From: Methylophaga sp. 41_12_T18
GTDB taxonomy: Bacteria > Pseudomonadota > Gammaproteobacteria > Nitrosococcales > Methylophagaceae
Reading direction: 5' to 3'
NCBI GenBank assembly: GCA_002163115.1
Contig: MAAI01000008.1
Coordinates: 23,238-87,237, forward strand
DNA: 64,000 nucleotides
The position numbers were made by a program, and so were the translations under genes. The notes beneath the pieces are model-generated. The model had not been told where the DNA came from. It searched no databases and saw only the letters and a list, made by a program, of their open reading frames with translations. Below, piece after piece: positions 900-8,381 of this stretch (within the stretch, counting starts at the first letter, position 1; each line of letters starts with the position of its first letter).

Positions 900-1075
900 T
901 CTAAACTTGAGAGAAGCTAACGTAGTTGGTTTTAGTATGATTAATAACTACCCAGAATAAACTCCACTTTTTTCTGAAAAAATTCTGCGACTATCCACTT
1001 TAGGTCGGAAGACATCTAATTAAAACATCCTTAACTTTCAGACTAAATTTAAGCCTCTGCAATTGCTGCCCATAT
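900..1075. other. Intergenic, nothing recognised
   Basis: AT-rich spacer between the end of the HEPN-like gene and the terminator shared with the chelatase operon. No convincing ORF, promoter or repeat was seen. Confidence 0.5.
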
Positions 1076-1106
1076 AAAAACGCCGCTGTAGAATAGCGGC
1101 GTTTTT
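1076..1106. terminator. Bidirectional Rho-independent terminator
   Basis: Perfect 12-bp arms (AAAAACGCCGCT at 1076-1087 and its complement at 1095-1106) around a 7-nt loop, with A/T tracts on both sides. It lies between the convergent HEPN-like gene and the chelatase gene that ends at 1127, and can serve both. Confidence 0.85.
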
Positions 1107-1126: not shown

Positions 1127-4100
1127 TTATGTAGGTTTGCTACGTAATTGCCTAACAAATCCTAACATCAACATCACCACAAATAATGCTAATGCTAACA
1201 GCAGTTGTTGATCCCACTCTTTATCTTCCGGTTGTTGCTGTTCTACTTTTTCCAGCTTCTGTCCTTGGACTTCAACAGCTTCAGCAGCAGCTTCGGTATT
1301 AGCCGCAGGTGTTTCTACAGCTGATGGCAATGCTTTAAGGCCAAAACCATTGGCTTGCTGCTCGACAAATTCGCGGAGTTTTTCGTTATCAACAAACACG
1401 TCATACTTTTCTACTAGATCAACATAACGTTCAATCATATGCTCCAATGTTTCTGCGTCAGCTTGCCAATACTCTTTACGGTTTGCTTCCAACATACGTT
1501 CTAACATTTGAGCTTGAGAACGTGGGTTCGTTTGCTCAAACCATTCATCAATATTCAGTTCTAATTTGTCATTCACATAGACTTCATAAAACTCTTGCCA
1601 CTGGTCATCACGTACCACGTTCGGGTCAACTACCTGCCATCCCCAAAAGTTGCTTAAATGAGATGATAAAGTGGTTGCACCGCTATAACCTTCCTTCATC
1701 ATTTCTTCGACCCAGCGTTTATGGAAGTTGCGTGACCGAAGTTCTTTTGCCAAAAATTCAGCGGCGGCTTGTGCTTTAGGATTATTAGCATCACGAAGGT
1801 TACTAATCACCATCTCAGGACTGGCACCATCTAAGTTTCGCACCGCTAAAGCCAATGAACCAAAATACTCAAAAGGGTCATCTGAGCTAAGCATACCGTA
1901 GACATTAGATGATCTAGAAAACATCGCGATATCCGTACCGGACAATTGCTTGGCATATAAGTCGACATTGTCTACTTTTTGTCCCCAGCGGCTATTGTCA
2001 GAACCGTAAAAGTGGCCCATTTTGGATAAGTATAAGTCAGCGATTTTTTCATCCGACTCCCATGTATCACTGGCAAACACAGCGTCTTCAACACCAGATC
2101 CATAGTTACCTGATGCATTAGAAAAAACACGTACCGTAGACAGGTACTCAGCTTCTTCAGCCTCAACACCTTCAGCTATCAACTCATCTTTAATGCGTTG
2201 ACTATTACGCCATACAAAGTTCGACTCCTCTTTGAGAGTAGCAATAGTTTCTACCGCTTTAGCAAGTAACTGCATCACATTAGGAAAGGCATCACGATAT
2301 AAACCGGTTGCTGATAACACCACATCAACTCGAGGTCGTTTTAATTCTGCAGCAGGAATAATCTCTGTGCCGATAACCCGACCATCATCACTCCACTTCG
2401 GTTTAATGCCCATTGCATACAACACTTGGCTTTCTAATACGCCATAGTGACGCATGGTTTCAATTGACCATAATGAGAACGCTAACTTATCTGGGTATTC
2501 ACCATGTTTGGCGTAATAGTCAGCAATCACACCTTCAGTTAATTCTTTACCTTGTTCATAAGCAGCTTTAGTCGGCACTCGTGACGGATCAAACCCATAT
2601 AAGTTGAATCCTGTTGGCACAGCTTCAGGATGACGTATCGGATCACCACCATTTTTAACCGGAATATGCTTACCTGCTAGACCGTCAACAAGGTGTTGCA
2701 TCTCACGAATATCAATAAAACGTTGATGCAAGTCTCGACCTTTTTCAATCTCGGCTAATAGCTCTTTACTCAGCTCATTATCGTGACTGGTATCTTCATT
2801 AACGACAAATTCACGGACTGTTCTAAATCCAATCAAGTCTTCCAAGTTCTCACCACTTTCTTGCATCAAGCTATTGCTAAACCCTAATCTAGAATCAAGC
2901 TCAGCATGATTATGGTGTTCATTCTCGTGGCCGTGATCTGAAGTGAAATGCTCTCGTTCAAAATCTGCAGCCAGACTAACAAAGTGCTGCCCCATCATTT
3001 GAACCAATGTCGATATGACTAACTCCTCTCTTGGTAACTCACCATAAGTATGTAAGCCCAGAGGTTGGTTTTGTGCAGAAAGCTCAACTAAGTAATCATG
3101 CAAAGCATCAAGAAAGCCATCAAAATCAGCATCAATCTGAGTTTGCTGCCAGCCAAAGTCGGCACAAATATTATTGGCAATACAGTCATCAATGATTTGC
3201 TGACCGGTTTTTTGTTTAACACCACCATCATCCAAAGACTTATATTGATGCATCAACTCATGGATATTAGCCATTTCACCTTGCAAACCTGCAGCAGCAA
3301 ACGGTGGTGTCATATGAGCTAGAACAGTCGCTCGGCCTCGACGCTTGGTTTGCATCGCTTCGCCGACATCATCAACGATGAATGGATATAGAACAGGCGT
3401 ATCCCATACTGCAAGATTACCTTGGTCATAAATTGATAAACCACGCTCTTTACCTGATAGATATTCTTGTGAACCATGCGTACCTAAATGCACAATGGCA
3501 TCACTATGCCAATATTCACGAGCATAATAATAGGCTGCAAGATAAAAGTGATTCATCGGCACAGTGCCCTTGTGATAAATCCGCTTATCTTCATCTTTAT
3601 CATCGGCACGTGGTGGCTGACGCATCACCAACATATTGCCATTACGAATTCGTGGCAGCACAAACTGATCTTGACCATCACGGTTCACCACCATGAAATT
3701 GTCTTTAGGATGGCCCCAATAATCATTGATCGGCTGACGAACATGGTCAGGTAAGGTATTAAACCAAGCTAGGTACTCACTAATTGGCATCAACTCAGCC
3801 AAGTCATCTGCTAATAACTTATCTAACTCGTAATCCATATAAAAAGGACTAAGAATGCGATCGATACGAGAAGTGAAATAATCACTATCTACTACATCAA
3901 TGCCATAACCTTGCTCATTGAGTGTTGAGCTAATGACCCGTAAGCTTTCAGGCACATTTAAAAAAGAAGCACCTACATCCTGACTGCCCCACACCATAAT
4001 AGACAGCTGCTTGTCTTTATTTGGCTTGTTTTTTAGTTTAACCAAGTTAACCACTTTATTAACCATGTGTTCGAGCTGGTAATCAATGATCTCTGTTTTG

Positions 4101-5119
4101 CCTGTTTCATCATTCAGCGCTGCAACGATCATCGGATCAACAACACCCGCCGCTTCTGGTAGCACCAAAACAAACGGCGTCATGCCGGGTGAAATACCTT
4201 GGCTACTATTTTCCCAATGTTGCTGATTGCCATCAAAGTAAGTCAGCGCTTGTAATACGGGTACGCCAAAATGACTAAATTCGGACTGACGTTTGCTTGC
4301 CCAATGAATCGATCTAAAGTTAATAACTGCATCAACAATTGTTTTACCTTGCTGCTGTATCAAGGCATTGTAATTAGAAGTGTTGGGGCTGAGTTCGAAG
4401 AAAAAAGGGACAGCGATCAAGCCTTGTTGTTCTAACTGTCTAATCGTCTCATCGATCAACTGTGTTTCCACCGACTCTATTGATGTGCGTTGTAACATCA
4501 CGCCAACCATAGGCTTAGCTGAAACTTCAACTTGTCGCCATTGGAGATACTGTTCTAATGTTGGAAAGATCAGACCTTCATAATCGGGATGATATATCCC
4601 CAACGGTGGGTAAATAATCGGCGCTGCAACATGGTGAGCGTTATTGCTGAAAACACGCTGTTGTAAATAGTCCGCCATTCGAGATAAATTTTCACGACCA
4701 CCATTACTGTAATAGTCAGACAAATTCTGTGCTTGTTGGCTAGAAATACCTTTTGTTAACTCTGCTGCTTCCAGCCAATTAATCGCTATAAATCGTGCTG
4801 TTGATTGTGCTATTACCGACGCATATTGCGCGTATATTTTCTTACTTTCTCTTACAGAGATAGCTTCCATAATAACTAAGTCATACGGTGCAAACACACC
4901 GGCAGCCATTTTTAAATCACCCAAGTCACGCTGCGCTTTTAAATCAATTAACATGCCTCGTTGCTTGGCAAACTCTGTTAACAGCGTTAATTTAGCTTTA
5001 CTGCTATGAGTGCCATTTACGAACAAGATGCGTTGTTCATCTGCCCATAATGTAGAACTTAATAACAACACCATTAAACTAACCATTACTCTAACTAAAT
5101 TATTCATTTTCACAATCAC
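1127..5119 (-). CDS. Exported, membrane-anchored CobN/ChlH-family chelatase subunit (HmuS-like)
   Basis: A 1330-residue protein of the CobN/BchH/ChlH large chelatase-subunit family, which binds a tetrapyrrole and inserts or removes a metal. Family hallmarks include HLGTHGSQEYLSGKERGLS and FSNASGNYGSGVEDAV. Unlike cytoplasmic CobN it has an N-terminal signal peptide (hydrophobic to about residue 26, LLSSTLWA/DEQ) and a C-terminal transmembrane helix (about 1303-1323) ending RQLRSKPT, so it should face the periplasm. A His-rich loop lies at about 721-737. It is last in an operon after an ExbB-like and a DUF2149 gene, under a Fur-box promoter. No ChlI/ChlD ATPase subunits or cobalamin genes are nearby. 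By analogy with Bacteroidetes HmuS it may remove iron from haem; this is inference. Start is GTG at 5119; ATG at 5107 is equally possible. Confidence 0.85.
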   Translation of the reverse strand: MIVKMNNLVRVMVSLMVLLLSSTLWADEQRILFVNGTHSSKAKLTLLTEFAKQRGMLIDLKAQRDLGDLKMAAGVFAPYDLVIMEAISVRESKKIYAQYASVIAQSTARFIAINWLEAAELTKGISSQQAQNLSDYYSNGGRENLSRMADYLQQRVFSNNAHHVAAPIIYPPLGIYHPDYEGLIFPTLEQYLQWRQVEVSAKPMVGVMLQRTSIESVETQLIDETIRQLEQQGLIAVPFFFELSPNTSNYNALIQQQGKTIVDAVINFRSIHWASKRQSEFSHFGVPVLQALTYFDGNQQHWENSSQGISPGMTPFVLVLPEAAGVVDPMIVAALNDETGKTEIIDYQLEHMVNKVVNLVKLKNKPNKDKQLSIMVWGSQDVGASFLNVPESLRVISSTLNEQGYGIDVVDSDYFTSRIDRILSPFYMDYELDKLLADDLAELMPISEYLAWFNTLPDHVRQPINDYWGHPKDNFMVVNRDGQDQFVLPRIRNGNMLVMRQPPRADDKDEDKRIYHKGTVPMNHFYLAAYYYAREYWHSDAIVHLGTHGSQEYLSGKERGLSIYDQGNLAVWDTPVLYPFIVDDVGEAMQTKRRGRATVLAHMTPPFAAAGLQGEMANIHELMHQYKSLDDGGVKQKTGQQIIDDCIANNICADFGWQQTQIDADFDGFLDALHDYLVELSAQNQPLGLHTYGELPREELVISTLVQMMGQHFVSLAADFEREHFTSDHGHENEHHNHAELDSRLGFSNSLMQESGENLEDLIGFRTVREFVVNEDTSHDNELSKELLAEIEKGRDLHQRFIDIREMQHLVDGLAGKHIPVKNGGDPIRHPEAVPTGFNLYGFDPSRVPTKAAYEQGKELTEGVIADYYAKHGEYPDKLAFSLWSIETMRHYGVLESQVLYAMGIKPKWSDDGRVIGTEIIPAAELKRPRVDVVLSATGLYRDAFPNVMQLLAKAVETIATLKEESNFVWRNSQRIKDELIAEGVEAEEAEYLSTVRVFSNASGNYGSGVEDAVFASDTWESDEKIADLYLSKMGHFYGSDNSRWGQKVDNVDLYAKQLSGTDIAMFSRSSNVYGMLSSDDPFEYFGSLALAVRNLDGASPEMVISNLRDANNPKAQAAAEFLAKELRSRNFHKRWVEEMMKEGYSGATTLSSHLSNFWGWQVVDPNVVRDDQWQEFYEVYVNDKLELNIDEWFEQTNPRSQAQMLERMLEANRKEYWQADAETLEHMIERYVDLVEKYDVFVDNEKLREFVEQQANGFGLKALPSAVETPAANTEAAAEAVEVQGQKLEKVEQQQPEDKEWDQQLLLALALFVVMLMLGFVRQLRSKPT

Positions 5120-5141
5120 TTTGTATCTTGTTAACCGTCAT

Positions 5142-5447
5142 TTATTCCGGCACATAAACCATCGATCCGTCGGCCATCGTGTAAGCCACTCCAGCTTTAG
5201 TACCCTGACCGCCACCAATCTCACCTGATGATTCATAGTGTTCAATGGTTTCGCCTTTTTTAACAATCACTTCCATATTGTCTTGGCCAGCATTTTTTAT
5301 CACCGTGACATTGTCAGCGCTATAGGGGTTGAGTGGGTTTTGGGCAATGGATATTAACAAAGCAGCAATCAGCACTAGAAACACATCCACTAAATTAATC
5401 ATTGAACTGGCTGGGTTTAAATCATCATCTTCATTAAGCAGCTTCAC
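5142..5447 (-). CDS. DUF2149 small membrane protein
   Basis: A 101-residue protein with a short acidic N-terminus (LLNEDDDLNPASSMINLVD), one transmembrane helix at about 20-40 (VFLVLIAALLISIA) and an extracytoplasmic C-terminal domain. This layout resembles ExbD/TolR proteins, including an Asp (D25) at the start of the helix, and matches DUF2149. It overlaps the upstream ExbB-like gene by 14 bp and lies 22 bp before the chelatase gene. A role as ExbD-like partner that couples proton flow to the chelatase or a receptor is inference from the context. Confidence 0.8.
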   Translation of the reverse strand: MKLLNEDDDLNPASSMINLVDVFLVLIAALLISIAQNPLNPYSADNVTVIKNAGQDNMEVIVKKGETIEHYESSGEIGGGQGTKAGVAYTMADGSMVYVPE

Positions 5448-6027
5448 GGGTTAACTCCTCAACTAAATCGTTATTGTCTTGCTGTGGATGAGGGACAACA
5501 CTACGTAACTGTGCAATATCAACCAGCTCAGTTGCTAACCAACGTTTGTGTACGGTCGCCAACCAAAAACTTATCGAAGCGATCACCATGCCGAAGATAA
5601 CCACAGAAAAAGCAATAATTAGGTTTTCACTGATGCCTTGCACATTGCCATCACTTAATGATTTTAATGCTGGAGCCATAGGAATCATGGTGCCAATAAG
5701 ACCCAACATAGGTGCAACTCTCGTTGTGATACGTAATAACTCCAATTGCTTTAAGGCCATCACATCCAACTGCTCCATTGTTAACTGTGGTTGTATTTTT
5801 TCTTGGATTAACAAGGAATATCCTGCAAGTTGTGACACAGGAATATCTTTATTTTTTAATACATTTTGATAGTTAGTGAAATTTTTACTGCGCTGCCAAC
5901 TCTGTGCACTAAAGCTTCCTACTGCGTAAATGCAATAAAGAAATAACACCGCAATGGCAATTAAAATCGGTGCCATAAACCAACCTGACAATTGATACAT
6001 CAATTGCTCTAACCACGCTAAATTCAT
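5434..6027 (-). CDS. MotA/TolQ/ExbB-family proton channel protein
   Basis: A 197-residue inner-membrane protein with three transmembrane segments (about 17-37, 102-125 and 136-158) in the TolQ/ExbB arrangement. The conserved region TRVAPMLGLIGTMIPMAPAL corresponds to the TxAPxLGLLGTVxGM signature of proton channels. It is the first gene of the operon, with AGGGGA a few bases before the ATG at 6027. Channels of this family use proton-motive force to drive an ExbD/TolR-type partner, here probably the DUF2149 protein. It is not the canonical ExbB of a TonB operon, as no tonB is adjacent. Confidence 0.85.
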   Translation of the reverse strand: MNLAWLEQLMYQLSGWFMAPILIAIAVLFLYCIYAVGSFSAQSWQRSKNFTNYQNVLKNKDIPVSQLAGYSLLIQEKIQPQLTMEQLDVMALKQLELLRITTRVAPMLGLIGTMIPMAPALKSLSDGNVQGISENLIIAFSVVIFGMVIASISFWLATVHKRWLATELVDIAQLRSVVPHPQQDNNDLVEELTREAA

Positions 6028-6097
6028 CTTGTCCCCTATCTATTTAACACACCGTATTAATGACAAGCTCGAGGCATTAAACTGGCAGTGACAGATC

Positions 6098-6126
6098 ATA
6101 ATACACTCGATACAAATGCGAATCAA
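6098..6126 (-). promoter_or_regulatory. Sigma-70 promoter of the ExbB/DUF2149/CobN operon
   Basis: On the minus strand, TTGATT (6126-6121) and TATTAT (6103-6098) are separated by exactly 17 bp, about 64 nt upstream of the first start codon when the expected transcription start is counted. The -35 element lies inside the Fur box. Confidence 0.7.
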
Positions 6127-6131
6127 TATCA
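6117..6131. promoter_or_regulatory. Fur box overlapping the -35 element
   Basis: TGCGAATCAATATCA matches the 7-1-7 Fur consensus tGAtAATnATTaTCa at 12 of 14 defined positions. It covers the -35 hexamer of the leftward operon, the expected place for iron-dependent repression. An outer AATGCG/CGCATT inverted repeat (6115-6120 and 6134-6139) surrounds it. Confidence 0.65.
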
Positions 6132-6268: not shown

Positions 6269-6961
6269 GTGGAAAAGATTTTAATTATTGATGACGATGT
6301 TGAGTTAACTAGCTTATTTCAAGACTATCTCGTCAAAGAACACTTTTTTGTTGATATCGCTTATGACGGCACCAGCGGTTTGAAAGCGGCACTTTCCAAT
6401 AAATATGACTTGGTCATTTTAGATATGATGCTGCCCGATATGGTCGGCACCGAGATTCTGGTGAAACTTCGCCTGAACAGCACGCTGCCAGTGTTAATGT
6501 TTACCGCTAAAGGCGATGATCTCGATCGCATTATTGGCCTAGAATCAGGGGCCGACGATTATGTAGCCAAACCTTGTACCCCAAGAGAATTAGTCGCCAG
6601 AATTCGCGCTATTCTCCGCCGCATTAATCAACAAGCCGTCTCCGCTAGCACAACGCAGCAAACATTAAATATTGGACCGTTAGTATTATCTAGCAGTAAC
6701 CGTAAAGCGACATGGTTTGAGCAAGATTTAAAATTAACCAGCACTGAATTTAATTTATTAGAAGCTCTCGCCCAACAAGCTGGACAAGTGGTCAACAAAA
6801 ATGACTTATCAGAACATGCCTTAGGCCGAAAGCTAGTACGTTATGATCGGAGTATTGATGTCCATATGAGCAGCATTCGCCAGAAGTTAGGCCAACAAAA
6901 AGATGGCCATTCCTATATACAAACGGTACGCGGGAAAGGCTACCAATTGATCAAAGGTTAA
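6269..6961 (+). CDS. cpxR: OmpR/PhoB-family response regulator, CpxR-like
   Basis: A 230-residue regulator. The receiver domain (1-118) has acidic residues D8-D10, phosphoacceptor D52 in LVILDMMLPDM and K101. A winged-helix DNA-binding domain follows (about 132-229, ending RGKGYQLI). The receiver text closely resembles CpxR, the envelope-stress regulator. Start is GTG at 6269 with GAGGTG before it. The histidine kinase follows 10 bp downstream. A CpxR-like box upstream supports the name, but no cpxP is nearby and other OmpR-family regulators remain possible. Confidence 0.8.
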   Translation: MEKILIIDDDVELTSLFQDYLVKEHFFVDIAYDGTSGLKAALSNKYDLVILDMMLPDMVGTEILVKLRLNSTLPVLMFTAKGDDLDRIIGLESGADDYVAKPCTPRELVARIRAILRRINQQAVSASTTQQTLNIGPLVLSSSNRKATWFEQDLKLTSTEFNLLEALAQQAGQVVNKNDLSEHALGRKLVRYDRSIDVHMSSIRQKLGQQKDGHSYIQTVRGKGYQLIKG

Positions 6962-6971
6962 TGATGAAATA

Positions 6972-8381
6972 ATGGGTAGGTTATTCTGGAAGTTCTTTCT
7001 CGCCTTTTGGCTAACGCTGATCGTGGTGGCCATTATTGTTGGCACCGGCGTACGTTTACGCCATAACTCCACCCATCATAATCATATTGAAGACTACCGT
7101 TTGGATCATCGTGCTGGCATCTTCATTACCCCTGCCGCCAGCATTGCTGAGCAAAGTGATATTGCAACCCTCAAACGCTATCTTAATGATATAGATCAGT
7201 CACGAGGCCCAACCTTGTACGCTGTTGATGCTAAAGATCAAGACATTCTTGGCCGAGATATAGAGCCAGCCATTTTAATAGAAGCAAAAAAACAGTTTGA
7301 ATTAGGACATCATCAAAATACCATTCGTCAGGTCACCACCCCATTAAATCAAAATCTATTTTTGTTTGCCGTGGTGCCAGAACATTTTACTGCTCGCTGT
7401 AAATCAAATAAACAAATTCCCAAAGCCAGTCATGGTTCAGCAGGCCCATTTAACGGTAAACCTGGCGGCCCAGGTGGTTTAATTGGCCTACCAGCAGATC
7501 TATTTTTGCTTATTACTGTTGGCATTATTGCCAGCCTCTTTTTCAGTGGCATCCTTGCTTGGTATTTCACCAAACCAATTCGCCATCTACGTAACGCCTT
7601 TACTGCTGTATCAGCTGGAAACTTAGATACTCGCATTAGTGCAACTATGTATCACCGTAAGGATGAGCTCAGTGAATTAGGAATTAATTTTGATGATATG
7701 GTCAGTAAATTACAAAACCTGATAACTGGCCAACAGCAACTATTACACGACGTATCTCATGAACTTCGTTCACCGCTCGCTAGAATGCAAGCCGCTATAG
7801 GCATTGCTCAACAACAACCAGAAAAAAGACAGGAAACATTTAGTCGGTTAGAGCGAGAGACCCAACGGATAAGTGATCTTATTGGTGAGTTGTTAATGTT
7901 GTCACAGGTCGAAAACACCGATAATTTGCAAACCAAGCAAGCCATCGACTTTGCTGAATTAATGGCTGAGATAATTGAAGATACCCGTTATGAAGCTGAT
8001 GAAAAAAATATCACCATCAATTATACAACTGGTTCAGATTTTTCTCTCATGGGCTATGAAGAGTTACTCCGGCGAGCGATAGAAAATGTAATTCGTAATG
8101 CAATCAAGTTTTCACCACCAGCCAGTACTATTTTTGTCACGGTGAAACAGTTTGACCAACACGTTATTTTAACCGTAGCCGATCAAGGTCCAGGTGTTGC
8201 CGGTGAAGATTTATCAAATATCTTCCAGCCATTCTTCCGTACTAAAAATCAAGATGATGAAAGCTCTGGCTTAGGCTTAGCTATCGCTCTACGTGCCGTA
8301 GAAAAACATAACGGTGTTATTGCGGCGACTAATCAGGATGACGGTAAGGGATTGATTGTAATGATTAACCTACCGCTTTAA
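6972..8381 (+). CDS. cpxA: Sensor histidine kinase, CpxA-like
   Basis: A 469-residue inner-membrane kinase: transmembrane helix at about 8-26, a periplasmic sensor region, a second helix at about 175-198 (LFLLITVGIIASLFFSGILA), HAMP, then HisKA with H263 in HDVSHELRSPLAR and an HATPase_c domain with N and G boxes (NVIRNAIKFS, DQGPGV, GLGLAIA). The dimerisation region is close to CpxA. A Gly/Pro-rich stretch before the second helix (FNGKPGGPGGLIG) is unusual. It pairs with the regulator just upstream and presumably senses envelope stress. Confidence 0.8.
   Translation: MGRLFWKFFLAFWLTLIVVAIIVGTGVRLRHNSTHHNHIEDYRLDHRAGIFITPAASIAEQSDIATLKRYLNDIDQSRGPTLYAVDAKDQDILGRDIEPAILIEAKKQFELGHHQNTIRQVTTPLNQNLFLFAVVPEHFTARCKSNKQIPKASHGSAGPFNGKPGGPGGLIGLPADLFLLITVGIIASLFFSGILAWYFTKPIRHLRNAFTAVSAGNLDTRISATMYHRKDELSELGINFDDMVSKLQNLITGQQQLLHDVSHELRSPLARMQAAIGIAQQQPEKRQETFSRLERETQRISDLIGELLMLSQVENTDNLQTKQAIDFAELMAEIIEDTRYEADEKNITINYTTGSDFSLMGYEELLRRAIENVIRNAIKFSPPASTIFVTVKQFDQHVILTVADQGPGVAGEDLSNIFQPFFRTKNQDDESSGLGLAIALRAVEKHNGVIAATNQDDGKGLIVMINLPL

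Follow-up and report, generated by a model that had tools for sequence, protein, structure and literature searches.

A three-gene operon in the 64,000-nucleotide window analysed here (Methylophaga sp. 41_12_T18, contig MAAI01000008.1, positions 23,238 to 87,237) encodes an ExbB-like channel protein, a DUF2149 protein and a CobN-family protein. We propose that this gene set likely strips iron from haem in the periplasm and is probably powered by proton flow through the ExbB/DUF2149 pair rather than by an ATPase, a reading to which we assign a probability of roughly one half. HmuS, a haem de-chelatase of Bacteroidota, is already published, and its removal of iron from haem has been directly shown (PMC12583661). 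HmuU- and HmuV-like proteins have been reported in Proteobacteria, and HmuV-like proteins in Methanomicrobia (PMC10100974). We found no proposal in the open literature of a proton motor for CobN-family proteins, subscription journals being outside the search.

The CobN-family protein lies in a group sister to HmuS

Relatives were gathered from a profile scan of genome contigs (the best 80 of 399 confirmed), plasmid records and further genomes; gene calls in them were mechanical, and their loci carry L numbers. A quick tree of 117 rows, which excludes nine loci with a CobN frame under 1150 aa and three duplicates, placed the CobN-family protein of the window (hereafter the window protein) inside a clade of 31 rows with a support of 100; the deepest forks of this tree, including the placement of HmuS, were weak (33). 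In a careful tree of 33 rows, 18 proteobacterial rows were sister to the five HmuS rows (97/95.9). A further branch (99/96) split 27 motor-partnered rows from four CobN and two BchH rows; according to a program warning, long branches may account for the joining of CobN and BchH. The HmuS rows form a clade of their own (100/100), and the window protein lies outside it, in the sister group. Grouping of the proteobacterial rows with the cobalamin CobN proteins of S. meliloti, Azotobacter and others, a placement that would speak against the initial annotation of a haem-directed system, was examined and rejected (p-AU 0.011). By these trees, the window protein falls outside both the cobalamin CobN proteins and HmuS proper, in a proteobacterial group sister to HmuS. 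True HmuS-type proteins (with HGR and His1209) and a motor pair were also seen outside Bacteroidota, in two genomes of the window's own family (L130:4766-8851 and L131); the first of these loci also holds a 232-aa protein without a Pfam match.

The best sequence match in the PDB was HmuS (9d26, 4.8e-122). His538 and Glu577 of HmuS are retained in the window protein and in every row of the residue table, and the HmuS catalytic motif HFG(T/A)HG is matched by HLGTHG. Residues were mapped through B. finegoldii HmuS, which is collinear with B. theta HmuS to about residue 795, and from there anchored on LSLDH; positions 1143 and 1281 were dropped, the mapped letter differing from the published one. 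The Pfam CobN-Mg_chel match spans residues 135-1225 of the 1330. Hydropathy windows bore out an N-terminal signal-like segment, predicted to be a signal peptide, and a C-terminal membrane anchor, both as first annotated. A C-terminal membrane segment is present in 29 of the 31 clade members versus none of seven CobN/BchH/archaeal rows, one of which has an N-terminal hydrophobic segment. The disordered linker of the window protein is rich in histidine, with 7 His per 30 residues, compared with a median of 6 in the clade (31 rows, range 1-12, L056 being the low-end exception with 1) and 0-4 in other groups.

Compared with the HmuS/HmuU/HmuV system (hmuYRSTUV of Bacteroidota), the window shares the CobN-family fold, membrane anchoring, ExbB-like and DUF2149 partners and predicted iron-type control, and its relatives share the TonB receptor and HmuY. 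It differs in its separate clade, in a histidine-rich linker that replaces the methionine-rich insertion described in HmuS (PMC12583661), and in an operon without an HmuT-like gene or an adjoining receptor. The class I chelatases CobNST and ChlHID have the fold and the central-cavity histidine in common with the window, but use ATPase partners and have no C-terminal anchor (0 of 7 rows). These chelatases are cytoplasmic. BtuS1 and BtuS2 of Bacteroides fragilis, a member of the Bacteroidota, unlike the window's host, are CobN-like proteins needed to obtain iron from haem (PMC6460266), and BtuS2 has been equated with the HmuS of that species (PMC13227078).

The ExbB-like/DUF2149 pair tracks CobN-family genes

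In a set of 369 genomes from the window's class, DUF2149 was found over cut-off in 20 and CobN in 41, and in all 20 DUF2149 genomes the two lay on one contig within 5 kb (hypergeometric 5e-22, uncorrected for kinship). In a 21st genome, which has no CobN, the DUF2149 match was sub-threshold. The remaining 21 genomes with CobN contain 25 CobN places, of which 22 were examined and three short second pieces were left out. None of these 22 loci had a DUF2149 or ExbB-like gene within the stretch, and a ChlI-type ATPase lay near 11 of them at more than 300 bits and near one at 129 bits; ten had none, two of the ten being contigs under 5 kb. On the motor side, a ChlI-type gene was found near one of 122 loci scanned (L124), duplicates and short contigs included. 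DUF2149 was present in 11 plasmid records and within 4 kb of CobN in 10 of these (nine fetched, one by coordinates); in 12.5 kb of the Paracoccus record, CobN was not seen. In 14 control genomes, DUF2149 occurred only in Methanosarcina acetivorans, together with CobN and without a match to the receptor family PF00593; receptors without DUF2149 were present in E. coli, Caulobacter and Bacteroides ihuae. M. acetivorans is an archaeon and is not known to have an outer membrane.

Within the window's clade, the motor pair is at the locus in 28 of 31 members. The pair is absent from the CobN operon of L063, L064 and L073, and lies elsewhere in all three genomes with no CobN beside it. A Fur-like site ranks first in the 16-19 kb around each of these split-off pairs. 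For two of them, L202 and L203, a receptor gene lies at a distance of 4-6 kb, and one of the three genomes carries another pair next to a gene of HmuS type (L201). At L050 and L057, the operon that holds the pair also has its own TonB and ExbB/TolQ-type genes; the ExbB/TolQ-type and ExbD/TolR-type proteins of L050 match their models below cut-off. Purpose-built models found no ExbB-DUF2149 or CobN fusions among the relatives. A third and distant motor-paired CobN type (type D; L138-L143, L150-L160) is mostly about 1450 aa long and has a weak DUF2149 match; in 10 of its 16 loci no receptor lies within seven genes.

As first annotated, no ChlI/ChlD ATPase or cobalamin genes were seen among the neighbours of the window's operon. 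Elsewhere in the genome, chlI/chlD were looked for through CobT, which is absent from the assembly, and three AAA_5 proteins, which gave no NCBIfam match at 1e-20; AAA_5 itself is useless as a ChlI marker (22 matches in the genome, and matches in all 14 controls). With the pair tracking CobN and ATPases lying near other CobN loci, the claim that a proton-driven motor takes the place of the ATPase is, as a genomic prediction, well supported.

The channel protein was confirmed as ExbB/TolQ-like by a partial MotA_ExbB match covering profile positions 42-120 of 127, and has near-invariant residues P104, G107-L108 and T111 (hit numbering). The DUF2149 protein has the topology of the ExbD/TolR/MotB partners, a single membrane helix with a conserved Asp, and is modelled as a helix (12-35) and five strands (pLDDT 73.8, pTM 0.38). 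Its Asp21 is invariant across the 32 rows of alignment A4.

Many related cassettes are accompanied by haem receptors and HmuY partners

A receptor is on the locus in 29 of the 31 clade members, as read from maps, and seven of the ten tested pass both haem cut-offs, TIGR01785 and TIGR01786 (L050, L057, L052, L053, L061, L067 and L091). All three receptors tested from the sister clade do so as well (L086, L097, L099); the only Pseudomonas receptor tested (L122) was CirA-like and under every cut-off shown. An HmuY-type gene stands beside the receptor in 19 of the 31 clade loci, by clustering or by an HmuY model built here, and the HmuY domain was over cut-off in seven of seven partner proteins tested, five from the window's clade and two from a neighbouring one. 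The survey of neighbouring genes links the relatives to haem receptors but places none beside the window's own operon, where no receptor remnant was found between operon and response regulator at E 1. The second-closest tree row, L051, has a window-like gene order with a receptor between the cassette and the two-component genes (L051:6922-8811). The genome itself has 15 PF00593 matches, and seven of these proteins were scanned: three were best with a haem model at 246-275 of 316.85 bits, one was B12-like below cut-off and one exceeded a siderophore cut-off. No haem oxygenase of family PF01126, the one haem-degrading family searched, was found in the genome.

A Fur-like site precedes the operon

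The operon had been annotated as Fur-controlled, and it is preceded by a Fur-like site, predicted from sequence, that ranks first across the 64 kb with a matrix trained on the relatives' sites. Its score compares with a leave-one-out median of 14.19 bits for those sites; when the intergenic region was shuffled 1000 times, 0.3% of the shuffles reached this score. The matrix took the best consensus match of at least 13/19 per upstream region (57 loci, 54 different sites), with the window and duplicate loci excluded; because the training sites were picked by consensus, its shape is partly circular, but the rank of the window's site is not. A plain consensus count over the window's 300 bases put a different site first (13/19, p ~0.23), and it was the trained matrix that chose 6112-6130. 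Upstream regions with at least 14 of 19 Fur positions numbered 17 of 31 in the window's clade, 10 of 28 scored (of 29) in the sister clade, 0 of 19 in the Pseudomonas/beta clade and 0 of 15 scored (of 16) in type D, counts that are rough in that the mechanical upstream region starts inside the operon in some relatives (e.g. L064, L066, L068). We infer that iron starvation would switch the operon on. Zur control of the clade was rejected, with none of its 31 regions reaching a Zur match of at least 11/13 (sister clade 0, Pseudomonas/beta clade 1, type D 0). NikR half-sites in the clade's upstream regions scored 6-9 of 12. Riboswitch control was likewise rejected, an Rfam scan of seven relatives' loci, three of them from the window's clade, giving one match, a tRNA.

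A proposed mechanism and its alternatives

In the mechanism that we propose, a TonB receptor encoded elsewhere in the genome would bring haem into the periplasm, and haem would pass into the cavity that surrounds His548 in the CobN protein. Protons would be carried through the ExbB-like channel by Asp21, the conserved residue of DUF2149, and the resulting movement would pass to the anchored CobN protein and open or distort the site, so that the iron is freed from the ring. Transfer of haem or metal may be the task of the disordered histidine-rich linker, which is largely confined to this clade; the methionine-rich insertion of HmuS has been suggested to act in this way.

The kinship to HmuS and the haem receptors and HmuY partners of the relatives support the annotated removal of iron from haem or another metal-tetrapyrrole, but several observations pull the other way. 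The HmuS ligands Met79, His254-Gly-Arg and His1209 are replaced by Ile, Ser-Ile-His and Asp, and Trp1202 by Tyr; Gly80 and Gln299 are Ser and Phe, and at the HmuS motif LSLDHxxEFMGG, which contains His1209, the window reads LSSDDPFEYFGS. With Met79, His254 and His1209 all replaced, the substrate and the chemistry may not be those of HmuS. The methionine-rich insertion is missing, with at most 2 Met in 30 linker residues. The predicted fold (residues 28-1225; pLDDT 85.1, pTM 0.83) is about equally close to HmuS 9d26 (TM 0.77) and CobN 7c6o (TM 0.82), and identity is 26% to B. finegoldii HmuS versus 25 and 24% to CobN and 26 and 25% to BchH; since these values are about equal, fold and identity decide nothing between HmuS and CobN. 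No receptor adjoins the window's operon, none of the seven scanned receptors of the genome's 15 reaches a haem cut-off, and three of the ten tested in the clade miss it (L051, L055, L072), that of L051 being best with a B12 model at 231 of 599.7 bits. Fourteen of the 31 clade upstream regions fall under 14/19 Fur consensus matches, and none of ten FeoB_N matches in the genome was recognised as a FeoB-like ORF from its length and GTPase type. As for the motor, the annotation of DUF2149 as ExbD-like holds for topology, and neither sequence profile nor fold showed kinship to ExbD: hhalign against one ExbD gave a probability of 0.2%, and a fold search with the low-confidence model returned no match, ExbD included, an absence that is no proof. 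HmuS moreover works in vitro with NADH (PMC12583661), so that a motor may not be needed for HmuS. HmuT, HmuU and HmuV may affect HmuS activity (PMC13227078).

The alternatives differ in what the pair drives, in the cargo and in the direction of the reaction. The same machine could take the metal from something other than haem, for instance a metallophore or a tetrapyrrole that holds cobalt, zinc or nickel. We consider this unlikely. It would fit the histidine-rich linker, the Asp at the His1209 position, which is also found in three of four cobalamin CobN rows, and the B12-leaning receptor of L051, as well as the contexts of relatives in a Runella hyp cluster, a Trichlorobacter cobalamin plasmid region and near NikR in Azospirillum. 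It would also fit PA1922-PA1925 of Pseudomonas aeruginosa, an operon with CobN-like, ExbD-annotated and DUF2149 genes and a TonB receptor that is published as Zur-controlled (PMC4542158, PMC9431628), being upregulated in a zinc-starved mutant and carrying a Zur site (PMC4542158). Its Pseudomonas stand-ins here (L122 and L127, not PA1923 itself) fall in another clade, L122 with a CirA-type receptor. The window's clade, in contrast, has Fur-like and no Zur-like sites, haem receptors in seven of ten cases, HmuY partners, and no riboswitch in the loci scanned. Unlikely, too, is a division of labour in which the ExbB-like/DUF2149 pair powers TonB and an outer-membrane haem receptor, and no motor drives the CobN-like protein. 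Published models assign HmuU/HmuV of B. theta to the TonB receptor (PMC10100974; PMC12583661, Fig. 1 legend), in agreement with the ExbB-family match, the receptors at 29 of 31 clade loci and the proximity of the L202 and L203 pairs to a receptor gene. However, L050 and L057 are equipped with their own TonB and ExbB/TolQ-type genes (the ExbB/ExbD types of L050 below cut-off), DUF2149 follows CobN and not receptors in the control genomes, M. acetivorans having no receptors, 10 of 16 type D loci have no receptor within seven genes, and the window's operon has none.

A reaction in the inserting direction, with metal placed into a porphyrin in the periplasm, would be compatible with a fold as close to CobN as to HmuS, but Fur-like control, the receptors and the lack of a biosynthetic neighbour make it very improbable. 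We consider it hardly conceivable that the window protein is the CobN of cobalamin synthesis, despite its NCBIfam name (cobaltochelatase subunit CobN, 1297.5 bits over a cut-off of 1248). CobT (PF06213) is missing from the 94.9% complete assembly, in which CobS was not searched as such, and its two TP_methylase genes encode proteins of 461 and 313 aa, which by size we take to be CysG and RsmI. Together with the signal and anchor segments and the tree, the missing CobT and the two tetrapyrrole-methylase genes led us to reject a cobalamin-synthesis CobN, within the limits of an assembly of this completeness. Periplasmic removal of haem iron by a proton-driven set remains the reading that we prefer.

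Layout of the operon and its flanks

The operon was found where it had been annotated, on the minus strand and in the order ExbB-family, DUF2149 and CobN-family gene by ORF reading and Pfam, with all three families over their Pfam cut-offs (Table 1). Its description as one overlapping operon is true for one junction only, because the ExbB-like and DUF2149 genes overlap by 14 nt but 22 nt separate DUF2149 from CobN, or 34 nt if CobN starts at the in-frame ATG at 5107. P0001, the database cluster protein, is 1326 aa long, the length of the CobN frame from that ATG.

Table 1. Coordinates of the operon and of its predicted features within the window
Feature	Position	Strand	Basis
ExbB/TolQ/MotA-family channel protein (HmuU-like), 197 aa	5434..6027	-	PF01618, 38 bits, cut-off 22.9
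DUF2149 protein (HmuV-like), 101 aa, one membrane helix and beta-rich tail	5142..5447	-	PF09919, 98 bits
CobN-family protein, 1330 aa, GTG start (1326 aa if ATG at 5107)	1127..5119	-	PF02514, 1000 bits
Predicted signal peptide, residues 1-26, end ...STLWA/DEQ (slash, cleavage point)	5042..5119	-	Hydropathy windows at 1-8
C-terminal membrane anchor, about residues 1302-1327	1139..1216	-	Hydropathy 2.36, windows that begin at residues 1302-1309
His548 of HLGTHG, equivalent to the catalytic His538 in HmuS	3476..3478	-	Alignment to 9d26; invariant in alignments A1 and A5
Asp1081, at the position of haem-facing His1209 of HmuS	1877..1879	-	Alignment
Histidine-rich stretch HGHENEHHNH, residues 729-738, in disordered linker	2906..2935	-	7 His in 30 residues; pLDDT about 30
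Asp21 in DUF2149 membrane helix, candidate proton carrier	5385..5387	-	Asp in 99% of 107 loci
Fur-like site ACAAATGCGAATCAATATC, 84 nt ahead of the ExbB-like gene that opens the operon	6112..6130		14.45 bits, trained matrix
Terminator-like hairpin past the operon end	1074..1106 (approx.)	-	GC stem and T run; GCCGCTATTCTACAGCGGCGTTTTT on minus strand

A response-regulator/sensor-kinase pair lies upstream and divergent from the operon (6269-8381) and is also found in L051 (75% and 54% identical). Downstream of the operon end, a convergent gene (54-899) encodes a 281-aa protein with a sub-threshold HEPN match. The nearest named protein to the CobN-family protein is from Methylophaga sp. 42_25_T18 (79% identical), whose locus has flanking genes in common with the window on both sides.

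Other settings and implications

Further motor-paired relatives were seen in other settings. A Runella plasmid has a receptor, the motor pair and CobN within a hyp (nickel hydrogenase) cluster (L026:3545-11579), which suggests a nickel version. An Azospirillum plasmid carries the cassette and a receptor with iron ABC genes and nikR nearby (L023:7869-19651), and in Trichlorobacter the cassette is on a cobalamin plasmid (PMC3403914). These settings, and that of Pseudomonas, are gene contexts, not function.

Biological removal of iron from haem has long been disputed, and HmuS is the enzyme directly shown to do so (PMC12583661). We tentatively suggest that the ExbB-like/DUF2149 pair is a dedicated proton motor of CobN-family proteins, one that may serve CobN even in archaea without an outer membrane. 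The class I chelatases would then have a second great branch, in which periplasmic, proton-driven strippers replace the cytoplasmic, ATPase-driven inserters. Its haem-iron sub-branches would be the window's clade and HmuS, with their Fur-like sites, haem receptors and HmuY, and others may act on zinc, nickel or cobalt chelates. If a proton motor does drive haem strippers, the missing ATPase would thereby be explained, two small membrane proteins would gain a job, and a recently discovered kind of enzyme would have a new source of power. Many genes now named cobaltochelatase CobN would need re-labelling, and stripping of haem and other metal chelates would be predicted in many proteobacteria, including marine genera, in a sea where the recycling of haem iron matters.

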